DNA from: Bradyrhizobium canariense | GTDB taxonomy: Bacteria > Pseudomonadota > Alphaproteobacteria > Rhizobiales > Xanthobacteraceae | Direction: 5' to 3' | NCBI RefSeq assembly: GCF_900105125.1 | Contig: NZ_LT629750.1 | Location: forward strand, 6,289,001-6,353,000 | DNA: 64,000 nucleotides | Part shown: piece after piece, positions 14,378 through 44,537 of the stretch | Numbering within the stretch: position 1 is the first letter of the stretch | Layout: each line of letters begins with the position of its first letter | Made by a program: the position numbers and the translations under genes | Notes under the pieces: generated by a model | Database searches by the model: none | What the model was told of the DNA's origin: nothing | The model's input: the letters and a program-made list of their open reading frames with translations, nothing else

Positions 14378-14454
14378 TGGAGGCCCGGCCTGGATTTGAA
14401 CCAGGATAAAGAGCGATGCACTGCTCCCGCGTCGACGCTTTCCGCCACCGGGCC
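14378..14454 (-). tRNA. tRNA-like gene with an 8-nt anticodon loop (identity uncertain)
   Basis: The minus strand folds into a full cloverleaf of 77 nt with encoded CCA. The acceptor GGCCCGG/CCGGGCC is a perfect 7 bp and the T-arm CCTGG/CCAGG has a 7-nt TTCAAAT loop. The D-stem GCG/CGC has an 11-nt loop. The anticodon stem GGAGC/GCTCT (one G-T pair) encloses AGTGCATC. That loop is 8 nt instead of 7, so the anticodon could be read as GCA (Cys) or TGC (Ala). The D-loop lacks the usual GG. The discriminator is T. It may be a decayed tRNA or an unusual functional one. Confidence 0.6.
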
Positions 14455-31895: not shown

Positions 31896-32708
31896 ATGGA
31901 AATCAGGGTAGGCTTCGAGATCACCTACGCGGCGGTGCAGCCGACGCCGATGGTGACGATGCTCAACATCCATCCGTCGCGGTTCGCCGACATCGTCGGC
32001 ACCGAGAGCATCGTCACTGAACCAAACGTGCCGATCGGTTTTTACCGTGACAGCTTTGGCAATGTGTGCGGTCGGCTGGTGGCGCCGGCCGGCGGCGTCA
32101 CCTTGCGCGGCAGCGCGCTGGTGCGCGATAGCGGATTGCCTGATGGGGTGATGCCGACCGCGCAGCAGCTTCCGATCGATCAGCTGCCGGATGACTTGCT
32201 GCAATACCTGATGCCGAGCCGCTATTGCGAAACCGACAAGCTCACCGATATCGCCTGGTCGCTATTCGCTGGCACGCCGCCCGGCTGGGCGCGGGTGCAG
32301 GCCATCGTCGATTTCGTGCACCACCACGTCACCTTCGGCTATCAGCACGCCCATCACATGAAGTCGGCGCATGACGTCTACGAGCAGCGCGCCGGCGTCT
32401 GCCGCGACTTCGCGCATCTGGCGCTGACGTTCTGCCGCTGCATGAACATCCCGGCGCGCTATTGCACCGGCTATCTCGGCGATATCGGCGTTCCCAAGGA
32501 TCCCGCGCCGATGGATTTTTCGGGCTGGTTTCAGGTCTATCTGTCCGGCCAGTGGTACACCTTCGATGCGCGCCACAACCATCCGCGCATCGGCCGCATC
32601 CTGATGGGCACCGGCCGCGACGCCGCCGACGTGGCGCTGACCACGAGCTTTGGCCGGATGGACCTGGTCAAGTTTTTCGTCGTCAGCGACGAGGTCGTGA
32701 CGGCTTGA
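31896..32708 (+). CDS. Transglutaminase-like protein lacking the usual catalytic His
   Basis: The 270-residue protein has the same two-domain plan as its upstream neighbour. Cys169 is present in GVCRDFAHLAL and Asp in YTFDARHN. The position of the triad His (normally H-A-W) reads DFSGWFQVYL, with Ser in place of His. It may be inactive, use another His, or work as a partner of the preceding enzyme. Two-gene transglutaminase operons of this type are common in proteobacteria. Confidence 0.87.
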   Translation: MEIRVGFEITYAAVQPTPMVTMLNIHPSRFADIVGTESIVTEPNVPIGFYRDSFGNVCGRLVAPAGGVTLRGSALVRDSGLPDGVMPTAQQLPIDQLPDDLLQYLMPSRYCETDKLTDIAWSLFAGTPPGWARVQAIVDFVHHHVTFGYQHAHHMKSAHDVYEQRAGVCRDFAHLALTFCRCMNIPARYCTGYLGDIGVPKDPAPMDFSGWFQVYLSGQWYTFDARHNHPRIGRILMGTGRDAADVALTTSFGRMDLVKFFVVSDEVVTA

Positions 32709-35714: not shown

Positions 35715-37841
<2,127 letters not shown>

Positions 37842-37888: not shown

Positions 37889-37913
37889 CGGCGGGCGAAA
37901 GCCCGCCGTTTTT
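37889..37913 (+). terminator. rho-independent terminator of rpoD
   Basis: CGGCGGGC-GAAA-GCCCGCCG gives a perfect 8-bp stem with a GAAA tetraloop followed by five T. It separates rpoD from the retron locus. Confidence 0.9.
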
Positions 37914-38016
37914 GTTCGGGCTCGGAACAATCAAAAGAGCCCTGTGCGGCCAAAACCAGACAAAACAGGAACTCCAGCGACTTTGTCGCGAATCAACGCT
38001 CAATCTCACAATTAAC

Positions 38017-38046
38017 TTGCAATTCGAAGTCAACAGCGATTATAGC
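38017..38046 (+). promoter_or_regulatory. Candidate promoter of the retron locus
   Basis: TTGCAA (38017-38022) and TATAGC (38041-38046) are 18 bp apart, each matching four of six consensus bases. The region is AT-richer than its surroundings. It would start a transcript near 38053, just before the structured leader. Confidence 0.3.
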
Positions 38047-38094
38047 TCGCTGACAGCGAATTTAGTTTGCAAGCGAGTTCCGAATCAGTCGTGA

Positions 38095-38340
38095 GTGTTG
38101 GCTCGCTTGGGCGACATTCATGCCTCCCAAACCGGGCGAGTCAAATCGCTCTAGGGATTCGAAAGAATCCTCCATTGGCCGGTCGTGCGGCACCTGTTCC
38201 TGCGTCGCGCGCCCTCCGCCAAACATAGGCGAACATCGAAAAGGCTTCGATGTTCGCCTGGGAAGCTTAGAGGTCCTTTCGTTCGAGATGCTCTTTGTTC
38301 AAAGGCACCGGGGCAATTTTGCACCGGCGAACAGGGAGAC
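38095..38340 (+). ncRNA. Putative retron msr-msd RNA region (boundaries unresolved)
   Basis: Upstream of the retron genes the sequence is densely self-complementary. There is a hairpin closed by CTCGCTTGGG with CCCAA and GCGAG (38102-38139), a 6-bp stem GGATTC/GAATCC capped by GAAA (38155-38170), and a perfect 14-bp stem (38227-38240 with 38246-38259, arm AGGCGAACATCGAA, 5-nt loop). Short msr stem-loops followed by one long msd hairpin are what retron RNAs show, and the ncRNA usually lies just upstream of the RT operon. I could not identify a convincing a1/a2 end pair or the branching G. Confidence 0.5.
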
Positions 38341-38345
38341 GGTCA

Positions 38346-38522
38346 ATGGTCGATACCACTGATCCACCAAGCGGCGAACGAAAGCGTTCTGGTTTCTGGC
38401 GACAAGTGCGTGGCTTCGGCCGCAACCTTGTCAACAGACAGACGTTCATTATGGCCACCCGCGTCCTCACGTTGATGGTGCGGATAGTCGAACTAGTGAA
38501 CAGGCTACGCGGCGATCTCTAA
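38346..38522 (+). CDS. 58-residue retron-associated small protein
   Basis: ATG 38346 has an excellent ribosome site (AGGGAG, 7-nt spacing). The product has a polar N-terminus (MVDTTDPPSGERKRSGFW) and a hydrophobic to amphipathic basic C-terminus (MATRVLTLMVRIVELVNRL) that could insert into or lie on a membrane. It sits between the putative msr-msd RNA and the HTH gene, 37 bp before the latter, on the same strand. I do not recognise a family. It is the best candidate for a toxic effector or an accessory peptide of the retron, which is inference. Confidence 0.6.
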   Translation: MVDTTDPPSGERKRSGFWRQVRGFGRNLVNRQTFIMATRVLTLMVRIVELVNRLRGDL

Positions 38523-38559
38523 GCTAATTTTCCCAATTTTCGAAAGGTTGAGTGAATCG

Positions 38560-38871
38560 ATGTACGACCGGGCACTGAAATTAATCCGGCAATACCATCG
38601 GCTGTCGCAGGCGGAGCTTGCGGACGCCCTCAATCTATCGCGGTCATTCGTATCCGAACTCGAAAAGCCCGGAGGGAAGAAGCCAAGTATTGATGTGCTT
38701 GAGCGTTATGCCAACTATTTCAAAATCCCAGTCTCGTCGCTGCTCCTATTCGCTGAGCGATCAGGATCTTCGGAGTTGCGCGAAACGTCTCGAGCTTTTG
38801 CCGCCGACAAGGTCTTAAAAATGCTGGAGTGGCTCGAGGAAACCACGCGTGACGAGCTGCGAGCTGGTTGA
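38560..38871 (+). CDS. XRE-type HTH protein of the retron operon
   Basis: The 103-residue protein has an N-terminal XRE/Cro-like HTH: ALKLIRQYHRLSQAELADAL, then NLSRSFVSELEKPG and IDVLERYANYFKIPVSSLLL. The C-terminal 30 residues (FAADKVLKMLEWLEETTRDE) look helical. The start is ATG 38560 (or TTG 38548, MSESMYD). It overlaps the start of the RT gene by 23 bp if the RT begins at GTG 38849, so the two are translationally coupled. HTH proteins define one of the described retron classes; it may regulate the locus or control an effector. Confidence 0.85.
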   Translation: MYDRALKLIRQYHRLSQAELADALNLSRSFVSELEKPGGKKPSIDVLERYANYFKIPVSSLLLFAERSGSSELRETSRAFAADKVLKMLEWLEETTRDELRAG

Positions 38872-39841
38872 TCCGATGAGGAAGAAACCTCGAACCGATC
38901 TCCCTCTGTCAGATTGCTGGCTCTCTGCAATTGACTCACCTTCCACTCTCGCCCGACGGTTATCTACACCAGGCCATAAGTTGTGTGTCGACGATCTTTC
39001 GTCCTTCGCGCGAGATACTGGAAACTATCGACTGTTCCCAATTTTCAACGAGAAGGGCAAAGCGCGTCCTATCCAATGGCCGAAGCGCCGCCTGCAAGGT
39101 GTTCACGCCCGAATTCATAAGTTGCTCTCGCGCGTCGCAGTTCCGAAGTATCTACATTCAGCTGTGCGAGGGAAATCATACATTTCCAACGCAGCCGCAC
39201 ACGATCCGAAAATGCCAACAATCAAAATTGATGTGAAGAAATTCTTTCCATCGGTTTCGCGCGTGGTGATTTTTAATTTTTTCGCGGGCCCACTAAAATG
39301 CCGCCGTGACGTTGCGGGATTGCTCGCCGATATTCTGACCTTCGATGCGCATCTCCCAACGGGAAGCGCGGCAAGTCCGATAATCGCGTACTACTCGTTT
39401 AAACCTATGTTTGATGAAATCGCACAATTCGCGGAATCTCTCGGCCTTACGATGACATGTTATGTCGATGACATGGCCTTGAGCGGTCCCCGCGCCAACA
39501 AAGGCGTTCTTTACGCGATTAGGGGCATTATTGCCCGGCACGGATTGAAATCACATAAGGCGCATACTTTTTCAGGCTTGCAGCCAAAAGTGGTGACGGG
39601 TGTTTGTAATACGGCCGCTGGTCCTCGCGTTCCCAACAAGTTGCATTTGAAGATCAAGAACGGGTTTGATGCTTTGGCGAAAGCTCAAAACGCGGTTGAA
39701 GAAGGCAAAATATTGCGACCGTTGCTAGGAAGAATGGAAGCCGCAGCGCAGATCGACCCCGCATTTAAGGCTCGGGCTAAAACTGTCCGTGCAAAGTATT
39801 CGCGACCAAAAGATGTAGGGGGACTTGAAAAAATTGAATAG
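38849..39841 (+). CDS. Retron-type reverse transcriptase
   Basis: The 330-residue RT would make msDNA from its own ncRNA. Retron-specific motifs are both present: NAAAH (114-118, the NAxxH of region X) and VTG (249-251, region Y). The catalytic core shows IKIDVKKFFPS (first Asp128), LPTGSAASPIIAYYSF (usual LPQGAPTSP) and the active-site YVDD (205-208; most retrons have YADD). GTG 38849 is favoured by GAGGAAA upstream; ATG 38876 is an alternative. Only the RT domain is present, with no fused effector. The locus is AT-richer than flanking genes, suggesting acquisition by transfer. Confidence 0.93.
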   Translation: MTSCELVDPMRKKPRTDLPLSDCWLSAIDSPSTLARRLSTPGHKLCVDDLSSFARDTGNYRLFPIFNEKGKARPIQWPKRRLQGVHARIHKLLSRVAVPKYLHSAVRGKSYISNAAAHDPKMPTIKIDVKKFFPSVSRVVIFNFFAGPLKCRRDVAGLLADILTFDAHLPTGSAASPIIAYYSFKPMFDEIAQFAESLGLTMTCYVDDMALSGPRANKGVLYAIRGIIARHGLKSHKAHTFSGLQPKVVTGVCNTAAGPRVPNKLHLKIKNGFDALAKAQNAVEEGKILRPLLGRMEAAAQIDPAFKARAKTVRAKYSRPKDVGGLEKIE

Positions 39842-39931
39842 AAACTCGTTTCCGGCTTGGTCCCTTAACTCGGTCAATGCGACCGCGTACTAAGCGGGAC
39901 GGTGGTAACTCTAAAAATATCGAGTCGCCAC

Positions 39932-40556
39932 TTATCCTTCCGCCGCCGGACAACTCGGCCCGAACCACCACGCGCTTTCCGTAAACGTCACCGGCACCAC
40001 GCCGCCCGCGACACGTCGGCCCGATGGATGCAGGTTCAGCGATCCGTCCGGCGCGAACGCGCGGTCAAAACTTCCTTCATCGGTCATGGTGAGATCGGGG
40101 CCCGACCAGCGTCCGGCAAAGGTCAGGCGTGGTGGCTGTTCGATCTGGCCGGTGAAGTTCCAGAACACCGGCCGATAATAGGCGCGCAGGCGAAACGCAT
40201 GTCTGTCCATGTCGGACCACACGCGGCCCGGCGTTCCGCCACGCAGCTGAAGCCGGTAGCGCTCGCCAAGCGGTGTGCAGAGATAGCCGTCGCCGCGCAC
40301 GCTGGTGGACGCAAGAATGCGCGAGCCTGAGGGCGACGGCGAAAACCAGATGTAGAACGTGTAGGTGCCGGACGCGGCGTGCGCGACGCCGACGCCTTGC
40401 CGGCCACAGCCGCGTGCGTCCGCCGACCCGATAGATCCACGGCGAGAACGCGGCGTTGACGGTGATGTAGAAAATCGCGCCGAGCGCCAGCAGCACGAAC
40501 AGGCTGGTCAGGCACCCGACGCGGCGCCTGCGGGTGGGTGGCTGGCCTTCGATCAT
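39932..40556 (-). pseudogene. Frameshifted gene for a hypothetical membrane-anchored protein
   Basis: ATG 40556 starts a frame with a membrane anchor (VGCLTSLFVLLALGAIFYI) and NAAFSPWIYRVGG. It then loses sense at about 40413. The continuation is in another frame: GVGVAHAASGTYTFYIWFSP, then SILASTS-like and VRGDGYLCTPLGERYRLQL, to the end AWWFGPSCPAAEG. Removing one C in ACGCGGCTG restores one protein of about 207 residues. It is either a true pseudogene or a sequencing error. The function is unknown. It is the first gene beyond the retron. Confidence 0.7.
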
Positions 40557-40781
40557 GGCGCGATGATGAAATGGGCCGCCCGGGCTTTTAAGCAGAGCGC
40601 GGCACTTTCAAGGGGGAATGCTCCGGAAAACGGAACGCATTGGTGATATCATCATTCAAGCCTGCGCCATCGATCGTGGCGAATGACGCGAGGATAATAA
40701 GGATCATCGCCTGTCTGCAACTCCGCGGAACAACCGTGAGTTCCCGGTTTCCCGCATTTCATCCGGTTTGGACGAGATGTC

Positions 40782-42359
40782 ATGAACCCAGCCAATCCCG
40801 CCTTCCCGAGCACGGCCGTCCTGAAGCCGGGAGCGGTCGACCTCCCGCTGCTGAGACGCATCCATGCAGGTACCGTTGCGCTGTCGCTGGATCCCTCGGC
40901 AACCACGGGCATGCGGGCTTCACAGGCCACGGTTCAGGACATCGTCGACAGCCACAAGGTGGTCTATGGAATCAATACCGGCTTCGGCAAGCTGGTGAGC
41001 ACGCGGATCAGCAACGACCATTTGGCCGAACTGCAACGCAATCTGGTGCTGTCGCACAGCGTCGGAACGGGTGAGCCGCTCTCGCCTGCCGTGGTCCGGT
41101 TGGTGCTCGCGACCAAGGTCGTGAGTTTGGCCCGTGGGCATTCCGGGGTACGGCCGGCGCTGGTCGATGCGCTGCTCGCCTTGTACAACGCGGGCATCAC
41201 TCCCCGCATCCCCGCCAAGGGATCGGTCGGCGCGTCAGGGGATTTGGCTCCCCTTGCACATCTGGCGTGCGTGCTCATCGGTGACGGCGAAGCCTTCACC
41301 GCCGATGGAAAAGTCGTGAAAGGGAGCGAGGCCCTGGCGCTGGTCGGGCTGGAGCCCTTTGTGCTCGGTGCCAAGGAGGGGCTGGCCCTGCTCAATGGCA
41401 CGCAGGTATCAACCGCTCTCGCGCTCTCAGGCTTGTTTGGTGCGGAAGACGTCTTCGCGTCGGCGTTGATCTCGGGGGCGCTGTCGCTCGAAGCCATCCA
41501 GGGCTCCATCAAGCCGTTCGATGCGCGCATCCACGAGGCGCGCGGGCAGGCCGGGCAGATCGCTGTTGCGGCCGCGGTGCTTGCGCTTCTGGAGGGCAGC
41601 GAGATCGTGCCGTCTCACGCCGATTGCGGACGCGTGCAGGATCCGTACTCGGTGCGCTGCATTCCGCAGGTCATGGGCGCATGTCTCGACAATTTGACGC
41701 ACGCGGCGCGCGTGCTGGCGATCGAAGCCAATGCAGCGTCGGACAATCCCCTGGTGTTCGCCGACACCGGCGAGGTGATCTCAGGGGGAAACTTTCACGC
41801 CGAGCCGGTGGCCTTCGCCGCCGACATTTTGGCGCTCGCGATAGCCGAGATCGGCGCGATGGCGGAGCGGCGTATTGCGCTGCTCGTCGACAGCGCATTG
41901 TCGGGCCTGCCGGCATTCCTGGTGCGCGACGGCGGGCTAAACTCCGGTTTCATGATCGCGCAGGTGACGGCCGCGGCACTTGCATCCGAGAACAAGTCGC
42001 TGGCCCACCCCGCGAGTGTCGACAGTCTTCCGACTTCGGCCAATCAGGAGGATCATGTATCGATGGCAACTTACGCGGCGCGCCGGCTCGGCGAGATGGT
42101 GAACAACACGGCCGTCGTGGTCGGCATCGAGGCCATGGCCGCGGCCCAGGGCATCGAGTTGAGGCGCCCCCTCAAGAGTTCACCGCTGATCGAAGCGGAG
42201 TTCGATACGATCCGCTCGCGCGTAGCCTTCCTCGATCGCGACCGCTATCTCGCGTCGGACCTCGAGGCCATGAGGCTCTGGGCCTTGCATGCCGATGGGC
42301 ACATCGCTCCAGCGCTGCTCGCTGCCATACTACCCAGTCAACCCGGGGCATTTTCCTGA
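40782..42359 (+). CDS. hutH: Histidine ammonia-lyase family enzyme
   Basis: The 525-residue enzyme deaminates histidine to urocanate using an MIO group formed from Ala151-Ser152-Gly153 in [14 protein letters not shown]. Also visible are [10 protein letters not shown] (active-site Tyr), [11 protein letters not shown] and the family block [19 protein letters not shown] [19 protein letters not shown]. No other hut genes are nearby, so a role as a different aromatic amino-acid lyase cannot be excluded; the sequence looks like HutH. Confidence 0.88.
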
Positions 42360-42711
42360 TCGCGTGCCGCTGCTCGGTGACCGACGCCTGCGTCGAAAGC
42401 CCAGGCGAGGCGATCACCTGGCGCTTGTTCCGTTGCCGGACCAGACAGGTGCGGCGCGAAACTGATCCGTGGCCGGAATCATTCCGATCATAGCGGCTCT
42501 CCCTTCGGCTGACGGGTCCAGGGGATACCGCCGCGCAGCCGCTTGATGTGGATCAACTGATTTGCAGGCGACAAGCCGCCGGGCGGCAGGTCGCGGGCGC
42601 AAGGGGCATTTTCGAACGAAAAATGGCATGAGAGGTGTTACGATCTCGGGCCACCCGTTATGCCCAAGGTATTGCCAAGGGACTGCCAAGCGACTGCCAA
42701 GGGACTTCCTG
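42360..42711 (+). repeat. Intergenic region with three tandem 11-bp repeats
   Basis: Most of this 350-bp gap shows no gene. At about 42674-42706 the unit GCCAAGGGACT occurs three times in tandem with one variant (GCCAAGCGACT), just before the start codon of the lytic transglycosylase gene. An in-frame reading continues upstream to 42562 but the signal peptide starts at 42712. Confidence 0.6.
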
Positions 42712-43506
42712 ATGACCACGCGCACAAAATTGATAATGGCCGCTATTCTGACCCTGCTCGCGGGCCTGAGCCCACAAGCCCGCGCCGCCCAATGCGGCAG
42801 TGGCCCCGGCGGGTTCGAAGCCTGGAAGAGCGAGTTCGCCCAGGAGGCGAGGGCCAAGGGCGTCGGCGCCTCGGCCGTCCAGGCCTTGATGGCGACGAAC
42901 TACGCCTCGGCGACCATCGCCGCCGATCGCGGCCAGCGAAGCTTCAATCTGTCGCTCGACGCGTTTCTCGCCAAGCGGGGTGCTGCGACCATCGTTGCGC
43001 GCGGACGTTCGCTGAAGCATTCGCAAGGCGCGATGTTTGCTTCCATTCAGCAGCGTTACGGCGTGCCGCCGGGCCCGTTGCTCGCCATCTGGGGCATGGA
43101 GACGGGGTTCGGCAGCCAGCGCGGCAACCAGAACATGCTCTCGTCGATCGCGACGCTGGCCTATGACTGCCGGCGGTCGGCCTATTTCACCGAGCACCTT
43201 TACGCGGCGCTGCAATTGATCGATCGCGGCGCGCTGTCGCCGGCCCAGCGCGGCTCCATGCATGGCGAGGTCGGCCAGACCCAGTTTATGCCGAAGAACA
43301 TTCTCGCCTATGGTACCGGCAATCTCGACGTCGCGGCCAACGCGCTGAGCTCGACCGCGAATTTCCTGAAAGCCCATGGCTGGCGTGCGGGCGCCGGATA
43401 TCAGCCGGGAGAGCCCAACTTCGCCGCCATCGAGGCTTGGAATGCGGCGGGTGTCTACCAGCGCGCCATCGCGCTGATGGGCCGCCAGATCGACGGAGGC
43501 GAGTGA
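42712..43506 (+). CDS. MltB-type lytic murein transglycosylase (first of pair)
   Basis: The 264-residue periplasmic enzyme cleaves glycan strands with formation of anhydromuramic ends. It has a signal peptide (KLIMAAILTLLAGLSPQARA) and the SLT-like MltB domain: IWGMETGFGS (catalytic Glu), TLAYDCRRSAYFTEHL, GEVGQTQFMPKNILAYG and a C-terminal NAAGVYQRAI. There is no peptidoglycan-binding tail. A paralogue follows 230 bp downstream. Confidence 0.9.
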   Translation: MTTRTKLIMAAILTLLAGLSPQARAAQCGSGPGGFEAWKSEFAQEARAKGVGASAVQALMATNYASATIAADRGQRSFNLSLDAFLAKRGAATIVARGRSLKHSQGAMFASIQQRYGVPPGPLLAIWGMETGFGSQRGNQNMLSSIATLAYDCRRSAYFTEHLYAALQLIDRGALSPAQRGSMHGEVGQTQFMPKNILAYGTGNLDVAANALSSTANFLKAHGWRAGAGYQPGEPNFAAIEAWNAAGVYQRAIALMGRQIDGGE

Positions 43507-43556
43507 AGCGGGCTTGCGGGACGCGCCTCTGATGCAAGCGTTACCAGTCTCTCCAT

Positions 43557-43676
43557 CGTCATTGCGAGGAGCGAAGCGACGAAGCAATCCACCTTTCTGC
43601 ACGTTGGCGATATGGATCGCTTCGCGGAGTCTGTCATCGGGCGCGCATGCGCGCGACCCGTTGGCTCGCAATGACG
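43557..43676. repeat. Interspersed repeat family A, full copy 2
   Basis: CGTCATTGCGAGGAGCGAAG to GGCTCGCAATGACGG, closely matching 17275-17395 except in the central spacer. It lies between the two transglycosylase genes. Confidence 0.85.
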
Positions 43677-43733
43677 GTGTGCGGCGCGTATTTTCATGAC
43701 ATGATTGAGATAATCGAGCAGCAAAGGATTCGC

Positions 43734-44537
43734 ATGCGCAAGTTTTATTTGGCCATTTTGTTCAGCACGGTCATCGCCACCCCCTCGTTCGCCGCCCGTT
43801 GTGGTGGGGATTTTAATTCCTTCGTCGCCAGCATGTCGGCGGACGCGCAGGCGGCCGGCGTCTCGCAAGCCGTTATTTCGCAGGCGTTCGGCGGTGTAAC
43901 GCAGGACATGGCGGTGCTGAATTTTGATCGCCGCCAGCGCTACACCTTCAACAAGACGTTCGAGCAATATGTTTCGACCCGCGTCGGCTCGGGGCGCATC
44001 AACACCGGCCGGGCGATGCTGCAGCGGAACGCCGCGCTGCTGTCGCGGATCGAGGCGCGGTTCGGCGTGCCCCGGCAGATCCTGGTCGCGATCTGGGGGC
44101 TGGAGACGGATTTCGGCCATGGCGACATGGGCAAGCTGCCGGTGATCCGGACGCTGACCACGCTGGCGCATGATTGCCGCCGCTCCGAGCTGTTCCAGGG
44201 CGAATTGCTGGCGGCGCTGAAGATCGTGCAGCGCGGCGATCTTCCGTTGCGGGATTTGATCGGCGCCTATGCCGGCGAGATCGGCCAGACGCAATTTTTG
44301 CCGTCGTCCTACATCAAATACGGCGTCGATTTCGACGGTGACGGCCGCGTCGATCTGCGCCACTCAGTGCCCGACGTGCTCGCTTCCACCGCGAACCTCT
44401 TGCACACCAACGGCTTCAAGATGGGCGCGCCCTACGGCGAAGGCAGCGAAAATTTCGAAGCGATGCGCGAATGGAATCACGCCACGATCTATCGCAAGAC
44501 GATCGGGTATTTTGCGGATCAGCTGGTGGGAAGGTGA
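43734..44537 (+). CDS. MltB-type lytic murein transglycosylase (second of pair)
   Basis: The 267-residue paralogue has a signal peptide (MRKFYLAILFSTVIATPSFA), the catalytic IWGLETDFGH and the blocks LAHDCRRSELFQGELLAALK, GEIGQTQFLPSSYIKYGVDF and DGDGRVDLRHS. An AAAGGA site precedes ATG 43734. It and its neighbour differ in the metal- or substrate-binding loop DFDGDGRVDL, present only here, which resembles a Ca-binding loop of some MltB enzymes. Confidence 0.91.
   Translation: MRKFYLAILFSTVIATPSFAARCGGDFNSFVASMSADAQAAGVSQAVISQAFGGVTQDMAVLNFDRRQRYTFNKTFEQYVSTRVGSGRINTGRAMLQRNAALLSRIEARFGVPRQILVAIWGLETDFGHGDMGKLPVIRTLTTLAHDCRRSELFQGELLAALKIVQRGDLPLRDLIGAYAGEIGQTQFLPSSYIKYGVDFDGDGRVDLRHSVPDVLASTANLLHTNGFKMGAPYGEGSENFEAMREWNHATIYRKTIGYFADQLVGR

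Follow-up and report, generated by a model that had tools for sequence, protein, structure and literature searches.

Introduction

Retrons are anti-phage elements of bacteria and are usually described as a reverse transcriptase (RT), a non-coding RNA and a separate effector. In Retron-Eco1 (Ec86) the inverted repeat a1 carries CUUAG and a2 starts with UAAG, and in this and other tripartite retrons the msd is non-coding and the effector is a separate enzyme; the RT motifs of retrons go by the names NAxxH and VTG. Here we describe a retron in a stretch of 64,000 nt from Bradyrhizobium canariense (contig NZ_LT629750.1, positions 6,289,001 to 6,353,000 of the forward strand), which we call the window. 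We find that the inverted repeats of this retron enclose a small open reading frame (ORF), and that the leader pairs with codons 10-13 of that ORF in a covarying msr stem. A peptide ORF that sits within the retron RNA itself is unusual, and this point was missed in the initial annotation of the same DNA.

Type VI retrons consist of an RT, a DNA-binding protein and small auxiliary proteins, as PMC8541194 describes them, citing Mestre 2020, and counterparts of all three (RT_VI, HTH_VI and a small auxiliary ORF at 38346-38522) are found here:

38346-38522, + strand: small ORF within the retron RNA, for a basic peptide of 58 aa whose C-terminal helix is hydrophobic
38560-38871, + strand: XRE-type helix-turn-helix (HTH) protein, HTH_VI, with an ATG start (PADLOC HTH_VI, 3.4e-30; Pfam HTH_3, 2.6e-9)
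38876-39841, + strand: retron RT, type VI (PADLOC RT_VI, 7.2e-77)

When the RT was searched against the classified retron RTs, RT_VI was the best model, with 256 bits vs 124 bits for the next-best type, and the nearest solved chains by sequence are the retron RTs Ec86, Ec67 and Kva2 (Ec86 being 7v9u, E 9e-11). Given the RT_VI and HTH_VI profile scores and these nearest structures, the locus is, judged by its sequence, a type VI retron and thus a new member of a described type, which sharpens the HTH-associated retron class that had first been proposed for it. The two motifs then taken as diagnostic of retrons, NAAAH at residues 114-118 and VTG at residues 249-251 (numbered from GTG 38849), were confirmed in the RT frame, and the N, A, H, T and G of the two motifs are invariant across 43 sequences.

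A peptide ORF enclosed by the predicted retron RNA

The structured RNA extends from about 38227 to 38534 and contains the entire peptide ORF. The initial annotation spoke of a structured leader; the structure stands, as the RNA at 38215-38540 has a minimum free energy (MFE) of -135.6 kcal/mol (z -6.56, with 0 of 100 shuffles as stable and the MFE structure identical to the centroid), whereas the restriction to a leader does not, since the fold encloses the whole ORF. Its parts are as follows, where compensatory pairs are given for a close set of loci and for the alignment of a covariance model, R2, that is described below:

38227-38259, + strand: P0, a stem-loop directly 5' of a1, with 13 pairs, 5 of them compensatory, and 100% of counted cells paired (7 sequences)
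38260-38275, + strand: inverted repeat a1, which pairs with a2 at 38514-38534 in the MFE fold and was followed in multi-locus duplex tests
38276-38285, + strand: b, the 5' strand of the msr stem, pairing with 38375-38384; compensatory in 3 of 10 pairs (close set) and 6 of 10 (R2 alignment)
38291-38338, + strand: stem 38291-38300:38329-38338 with an apical hairpin and a GCAAU loop; compensatory in 5 of 10 pairs (close set) and 10 of 10 (R2 alignment)
38375-38384, + strand: b', the 3' strand of the msr stem, inside ORF codons 10-13
38385-38519, + strand: predicted msd, placed by its position between b' and a2 and by the hairpins in the folds, with putative ends
38514-38534, + strand: inverted repeat a2, overlapping the stop codon of the ORF (38520-38522)

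As the b:b' stem joins the leader to codons 10-13, the start of the ORF falls within the msr and the remaining coding sequence makes up the msd; this part, 3' of b', folds into hairpins in the window MFE structure. The Shine-Dalgarno sequence AGGGAG (38333-38338) lies on the 3' strand of the 38291-38338 stem. From its position, the putative branch guanosine is G38270 in CUUAG, and many loci likewise have a TAG inside a1 or next to it.

An alignment of seven close loci shows a conserved block 5' of the ORF that is complementary to a conserved block at the stop codon, and this a1:a2 complementarity is kept through a compensated change in one of them, L015 (loci are given by our L numbers). RNAalifold returned the same plan for the seven, with 23 of 107 pairs compensatory, and in a recount 25 of the 107 pairs had changes on both sides, vs 9.0 (sd 2.1) in shuffled and 2-9 in slid alignments. 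The a1:a2 helix itself varies little in this close set (2 of 16 pairs compensatory), and its covariation becomes visible across distant loci. In Rfam searches, the window gave only tRNA at gathering level and no retron RNA family, six type VI loci matched no family, and 37900-38700 gave two matches below threshold, both to unrelated families (E 0.26 and 6).

The nested plan across diverged loci

For a wider comparison, 126 records were scanned for the HTH gene. We dropped 41 in which the HTH gene gave no match at 1e-12 or the upstream sequence was too short; almost the whole of L037-L059, whose RTs score as other types, is among these, as are L017, L026, L113 and L115-L118. A further 34 near-duplicates (>93% identity over 300 nt) were removed, and 51 non-redundant loci were kept. 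This set is conditioned on the HTH gene, with L002-L010 and L061-L100 outside the scan, and its loci are related, so the Fisher values given below overstate independence.

The fold z lies below -2 in 48 of the 51 loci, with a median of -4.3 (40 shuffles each). Three loci folded one at a time share the plan seen in the window: L125 from a Yersinia phage (z -4.9), L107 from a chromosome of a different class (z -4.0) and L126 from a P2-like phage of E. coli (z -4.2). The consensus of seven enterobacterial-type loci has it too, with 25 of 82 pairs compensatory.

Pairing between the two ends was assessed by comparing duplex energies with dinucleotide shuffles. For the stretch 5' of the ORF against the 40 nt at the ORF end, p<0.05 was reached in 15 of 40 loci (Fisher 2e-11), compared with 11 of 240 in six control windows; the 40 loci used for this two-block test and for a local-pairing test exclude L054, L109 and L127. 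That second test, a free local-pairing score, proved too noisy (median rank 7 of 39; own mean 28.0 vs 24.5 for control windows, p 0.0015), which is why duplex energies and a sliding profile were used instead. A statistic for a single a1:a2 helix gave p<0.05 in 22 of the 51 loci, and in 20 of these 22 a2 begins at -7 to +14 nt relative to the stop codon of the ORF frame, the two exceptions being L114, with a2 at +27, and L023, which has no intact ORF.

The sliding profile was calculated on 33 representatives, a selection that leaves out the longer loci L111, L112 and L114, and has two peaks, both with significant neighbouring windows. One is at the ORF end (-45 to -9 from the HTH start; 16 of 33 loci, Fisher 1e-10), and the other in the first third of the ORF (-195 to -159; 13 of 33, Fisher 2e-8). 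Elsewhere, at most 2 of 33 loci respond from -150..-114 to -75..-39, and at most 3 of 33 within the HTH gene. The second peak corresponds to the b:b' stem, whose sequence diverges widely between loci while its complementarity is retained.

These profiles also bear on whether the fold could be a leader for translation control only, with the true msr-msd elsewhere, for instance in the leader at 38095-38225. Among close loci that leader is conserved, and it contains additional hairpins, which would suit such an arrangement, but when the upstream block was shifted by 100 nt there was no pairing peak in the 33 representatives (all Fisher >=0.12), and the block from -440 to -340 has no peak of pairing downstream in them. 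Moreover, repeats around a template together with a conserved guanosine are the retron plan set out in PMC8989520, and it fits the pairs found here. We consider a separate msr-msd very improbable.

Two covariance models extend the comparison. R1 covers the stretch from a1 through b' and was built from the seven close loci. It was applied to the window plus 47 further loci, 4 of these 48 being training members. Its untrained matches (L018 at 1.6e-9, L020, L019, L107, L101, and L021 at 0.12) all fall where the element should lie, between -331 and -162 relative to the HTH start, with nothing else up to E 10, and in the whole genome that holds the window the model finds a single place. R2, rebuilt from 12 loci and run on the 39 others, gave 11 matches in the expected position, of which 10 were unseen by R1 and 9 had E<0.01, with phage loci included; it had zero matches in 333 kb of control DNA made up of other RT loci and the rpoD regions of relatives. 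In the R2 alignment, which leans towards the model, 26 of 35 pairs are compensatory vs 13.0 in shuffles and 9-13 when slid. On this evidence the nested ORF is a property of the type VI class and not of the window locus.

The peptide

The initial annotation treated the unrecognised peptide as an oddity of this locus, a view that does not hold: a comparable ORF of 47-82 aa, starting with ATG in 49 cases, lies 5' of the HTH gene in 50 of the 51 loci (the presence of an ORF of 42-100 aa being counted without a shuffled control). Like the one in the window, these peptides are basic in 48 of 50 loci (charge +1 to +18), and the C-terminal half is usually hydrophobic or amphipathic, a helix of the sort found in small membrane toxins. 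The AlphaFold model of the window peptide has helices at residues 10-27 and 31-57, with a mean pLDDT of 74.7 and block means of 80-94 in the second helix. The peptide matches no PADLOC, Pfam, NCBIfam or PHROGs model at the limits used, and among 45 clusters of peptide homologues, the query included, none carries a Pfam domain.

Over the ORF as a whole, all 21 pairs in the close set have a dN/dS between 0.23 and 0.59, and after the first 18 codons the ratio ranges from 0.12 to 0.90; these values are only a guide, as RNA structure constrains the same codons. Taken from the sequence comparisons, the peptide ORF is to be regarded as real. In L111, L112 and L114 the small ORF is of another kind and is 68-82 aa long. 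Its product is acidic in L111 and L114, and a significant a1:a2 helix flanks this variant ORF in these two loci and not in L112; the three could represent a subtype with another peptide. In L023 the small ORF is frameshifted and the RT intact.

Alternatively, the peptide might be an accessory with the RNA or DNA of the retron as its binding partner, or its translation might merely time RNA folding and the expression of the HTH protein and RT. The charge of +1 to +18 in 48 of 50 loci would suit such a role, as would the merely mild hydrophobicity of some of the peptides and the acidic small ORFs of L111 and L114. Against this, the hydrophobic or amphipathic C-terminal helix recurs, and there is no other effector gene in the retron unit; neither an effector gene besides the peptide nor an enzyme was found there. 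We regard an accessory role as unlikely.

A proposed mechanism

We think it probable that the type VI retron RNA is both the template for reverse transcription and the messenger of a toxin-like peptide. Retron RTs use the RNA between the inverted repeats and prime at an adjacent conserved guanosine, and RNase H1 shapes the product, according to PMC8989520. Applied to the RNA described here, the RT would bind the msr, prime at the conserved guanosine and copy the msd, with copying running from beside the stop codon back to b'. The predicted RT-DNA would be about 135 nt long and antisense to codons 14-58 of the peptide message, and RNase H would remove the copied RNA, hence the message. Folding, RT occupancy and copying could each hold back peptide synthesis, with copying and translation competing on one RNA, while the HTH protein would repress the operon.

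If ribosome and RT exclude each other and copied RNA is lost to RNase H, the RT would act as a brake. Retron RTs are said in PMC12039810 to make cDNA constitutively, which fits a standing brake. We give less weight to the last two steps, in which phage interference with the RT, the RT-DNA or host RNase H would permit translation, and the basic, membrane-seeking peptide would halt the infected cell. Put together, type VI retrons would be self-silencing toxin messengers, with the RT-DNA as an antisense DNA antitoxin that could also act in trans, and with a phage that spoils RT, RT-DNA or RNase H triggering the toxin. We offer this full scheme as a tentative possibility.

A number of our results weigh against the nested RNA or against the RT as a brake. 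A single unbroken a1:a2 helix misses p<0.05 in 29 of the 51 loci, with p as high as 0.80 in L104 (where the fold has no a1:a2), 0.79 in L112 and 0.64 in L034. A closing helix of at least 7 pairs in the MFE fold was seen in 49 of 51 loci but also in 987 of 2040 shuffles, and since 48% of shuffles show one it was dropped as evidence. Sequestration of the Shine-Dalgarno sequence was likewise rejected as a rule, this sequence being more paired than the whole RNA in only 31 of 50 loci. The covariance models, training members included, cover 23 of the 51 loci and leave 28 unrecovered; R2 has an off-target match in L035 (E 0.19) and two weak matches in the window beyond the element, at 32401-32504 (E 0.15) and at E 2.7. 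Within the first 18 codons of the ORF, dN/dS exceeds 1 in 3 of 19 computed values; dS is low there, as would be expected under RNA constraint, and these values are no proof of selection on the protein in that part. In L016 and L054 the RT frame is broken and the peptide ORF intact, which a brake formed by the RT alone does not easily allow, unless the HTH protein and the fold are enough by themselves or the frame only looks broken through a sequencing error; the broken frames of L016, L054 and L023 could be either real decay or sequencing error. Finally, there is reportedly a preprint in which single-stranded DNA made by the RT derepresses translation of a retron antiviral protein, the opposite sign to the one proposed here.

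That opposite sign would apply if, on the same nested RNA, the RT-DNA switched the peptide on, phage-induced RT-DNA opening a silent ORF or pairing in trans. The start region lies within the msr and the Shine-Dalgarno sequence of the window is paired (P unpaired 0.16), as a silent ORF would demand, and L016 could keep its ORF despite a broken RT, harmlessly, if the RT were an activator. In cis, however, copying and RNase H would destroy the message, given that RNase H1 shapes RT-DNA (PMC8989520); retron RTs are said to work constitutively (PMC12039810), and we found no way for antisense DNA that covers codons 14-58 to release the start. An activating RT-DNA, the main rival reading, therefore seems doubtful to us, and we prefer the RT as a brake.

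The locus, its neighbours and its distribution

The retron follows rpoD (35715-37841), and the order is rpoD, a terminator-like hairpin, the peptide ORF, the HTH gene and the RT gene, the last three all on the + strand. For the HTH gene an alternative start is TTG 38548; for the RT, ATG 38876, just 3' of the HTH stop, is the likelier start, GTG 38849 being the frame start used for residue numbering. Two further features belong to the upstream region:

37889-37908: terminator-like hairpin of rpoD, with a T run after it, read in the sequence
38046-38061, + strand: inverted repeat CTCGCTGACAGCGAAT, candidate operator of the HTH protein

The placement directly after the rpoD terminator, as first annotated, is borne out by this hairpin, which our sequence scan lists on the - strand only. 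The lower GC content noted earlier was also found again, at 51.8% for 37917-39841 vs 61.6% for rpoD and 64.9% for 40000-43500. The CTCGCTGACAGCGAAT repeat, which may be the operator, is conserved in 6 of 7 aligned close sequences, with its outermost pair lost in the window, and L015 keeps half of it. The promoter scan gave a single match, at chance level and on the opposite strand. Two more hairpins lie 5' of P0 in the leader at 38095-38170 and are conserved in the seven close loci. Farther away, at 14378-14454 on the - strand, ARAGORN lists a tRNA-like gene of undetermined anticodon that has no Rfam match at gathering level.

Homology to the window in the same genus stops between 37823 and 37924 (29 loci with rpoD; 35 genomes searched), which places the left edge of the insert at about 37917 and supports the proposed insertion after rpoD. 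The site holds other cargo in related genomes; one of them, L095, has 678 bp between rpoD and the next conserved gene, with no ORF of 90 aa. The retron follows rpoD in four loci seen, the window and L011, L012 and L016, the latter three matching its rpoD-to-RT stretch at 81-83%, while L013 matches from 38038 on only and L014 from 38115 on only. Among 60 relatives, a close RT match occurs in the retron's own genome only, and 8 others have RTs that are 27-33% identical.

The stretch downstream of rpoD is a cargo site in the genus, spanning 37917-43790 in the window and 678 bp to 7.5 kb in 10 relatives (L090-L098 and L100). We scanned seven cargo proteins chosen from 4 of these relatives; they include a type IIG restriction enzyme and Fic (L097), ABC-3C CTD9 and an LmuB-like protein (L096), DUF5131/PDC-M41B (L091) and an M78 peptidase/CapP-like protein (L094). 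L061/L090 and L066/L094 carry, a few hundred bp beyond rpoD, a second partial copy of its 3' end (236 bp at 87% and 315 bp at 81% identity), as if elements had targeted the end of rpoD.

Relatives of the RT at 58-93% identity, among the best 120 of 352, come from alphaproteobacteria and metagenomes, and the closest named records for the RT and for the rpoD-to-RT stretch include Bradyrhizobium. The alphaproteobacterial host, at first thought worthy of note, is not unusual. More diverged relatives are found in 17 phage records (P2-like phages and one Mu-like phage included), plasmids and IMG/VR contigs, and one RT subfamily is present in 99 of 5426 complete E. coli genomes. The plasmid collection had no DNA-level match to the locus, and a search of IMG/VR with the RT alone returned 6 distant RTs at 22-28% identity. 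In L176, a retron of this family adjoins an OXA-type carbapenemase gene on an Acinetobacter plasmid. As for conservation of the order peptide-HTH-RT, which had been left as a point to check, it recurs in alpha-, beta- and gammaproteobacteria, in P2-like phages and on plasmids.

Comparison with known systems

At the level of genes there is no difference between this locus and other type VI retrons, which have RT_VI, HTH_VI, the small upstream ORF and the gene order in common with it and also occur in P2-like and Mu-like phages. Our literature search found no paper that places an ORF inside retron RNA; key papers on type VI were outside that search, and we claim neither priority nor that such an arrangement is missing from the literature. 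If the nested reading is right, a whole retron type would have a coding RNA, type VI would have an effector after all, hidden in the template, and a single molecule would carry both sensor and trigger. The reading predicts the RT-DNA exactly and testably, and it would mean that swapping the msd of such retrons in genome editing removes the peptide.

The locus is like Retron-Eco1 and the tripartite retrons in its RT and in the plan of a1/a2, msr and msd set out in PMC8989520, but unlike Retron-Eco1 its msd is an ORF and no enzyme is found in the unit. As in DRT2 (neo), a single RNA would link reverse transcription with a toxic ORF; DRT2 assembles its gene by repeated copying after infection, as PMC12039810 describes, whereas the RNA of the retron already contains a complete ORF and its DNA would be antisense. 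In type I toxin-antitoxin systems a short basic or hydrophobic peptide, a structured message and an antisense strand come together. The retron described here would resemble such a pair, with DNA as the antisense strand, and would differ from it in that this predicted strand is copied from the putative toxin message itself.

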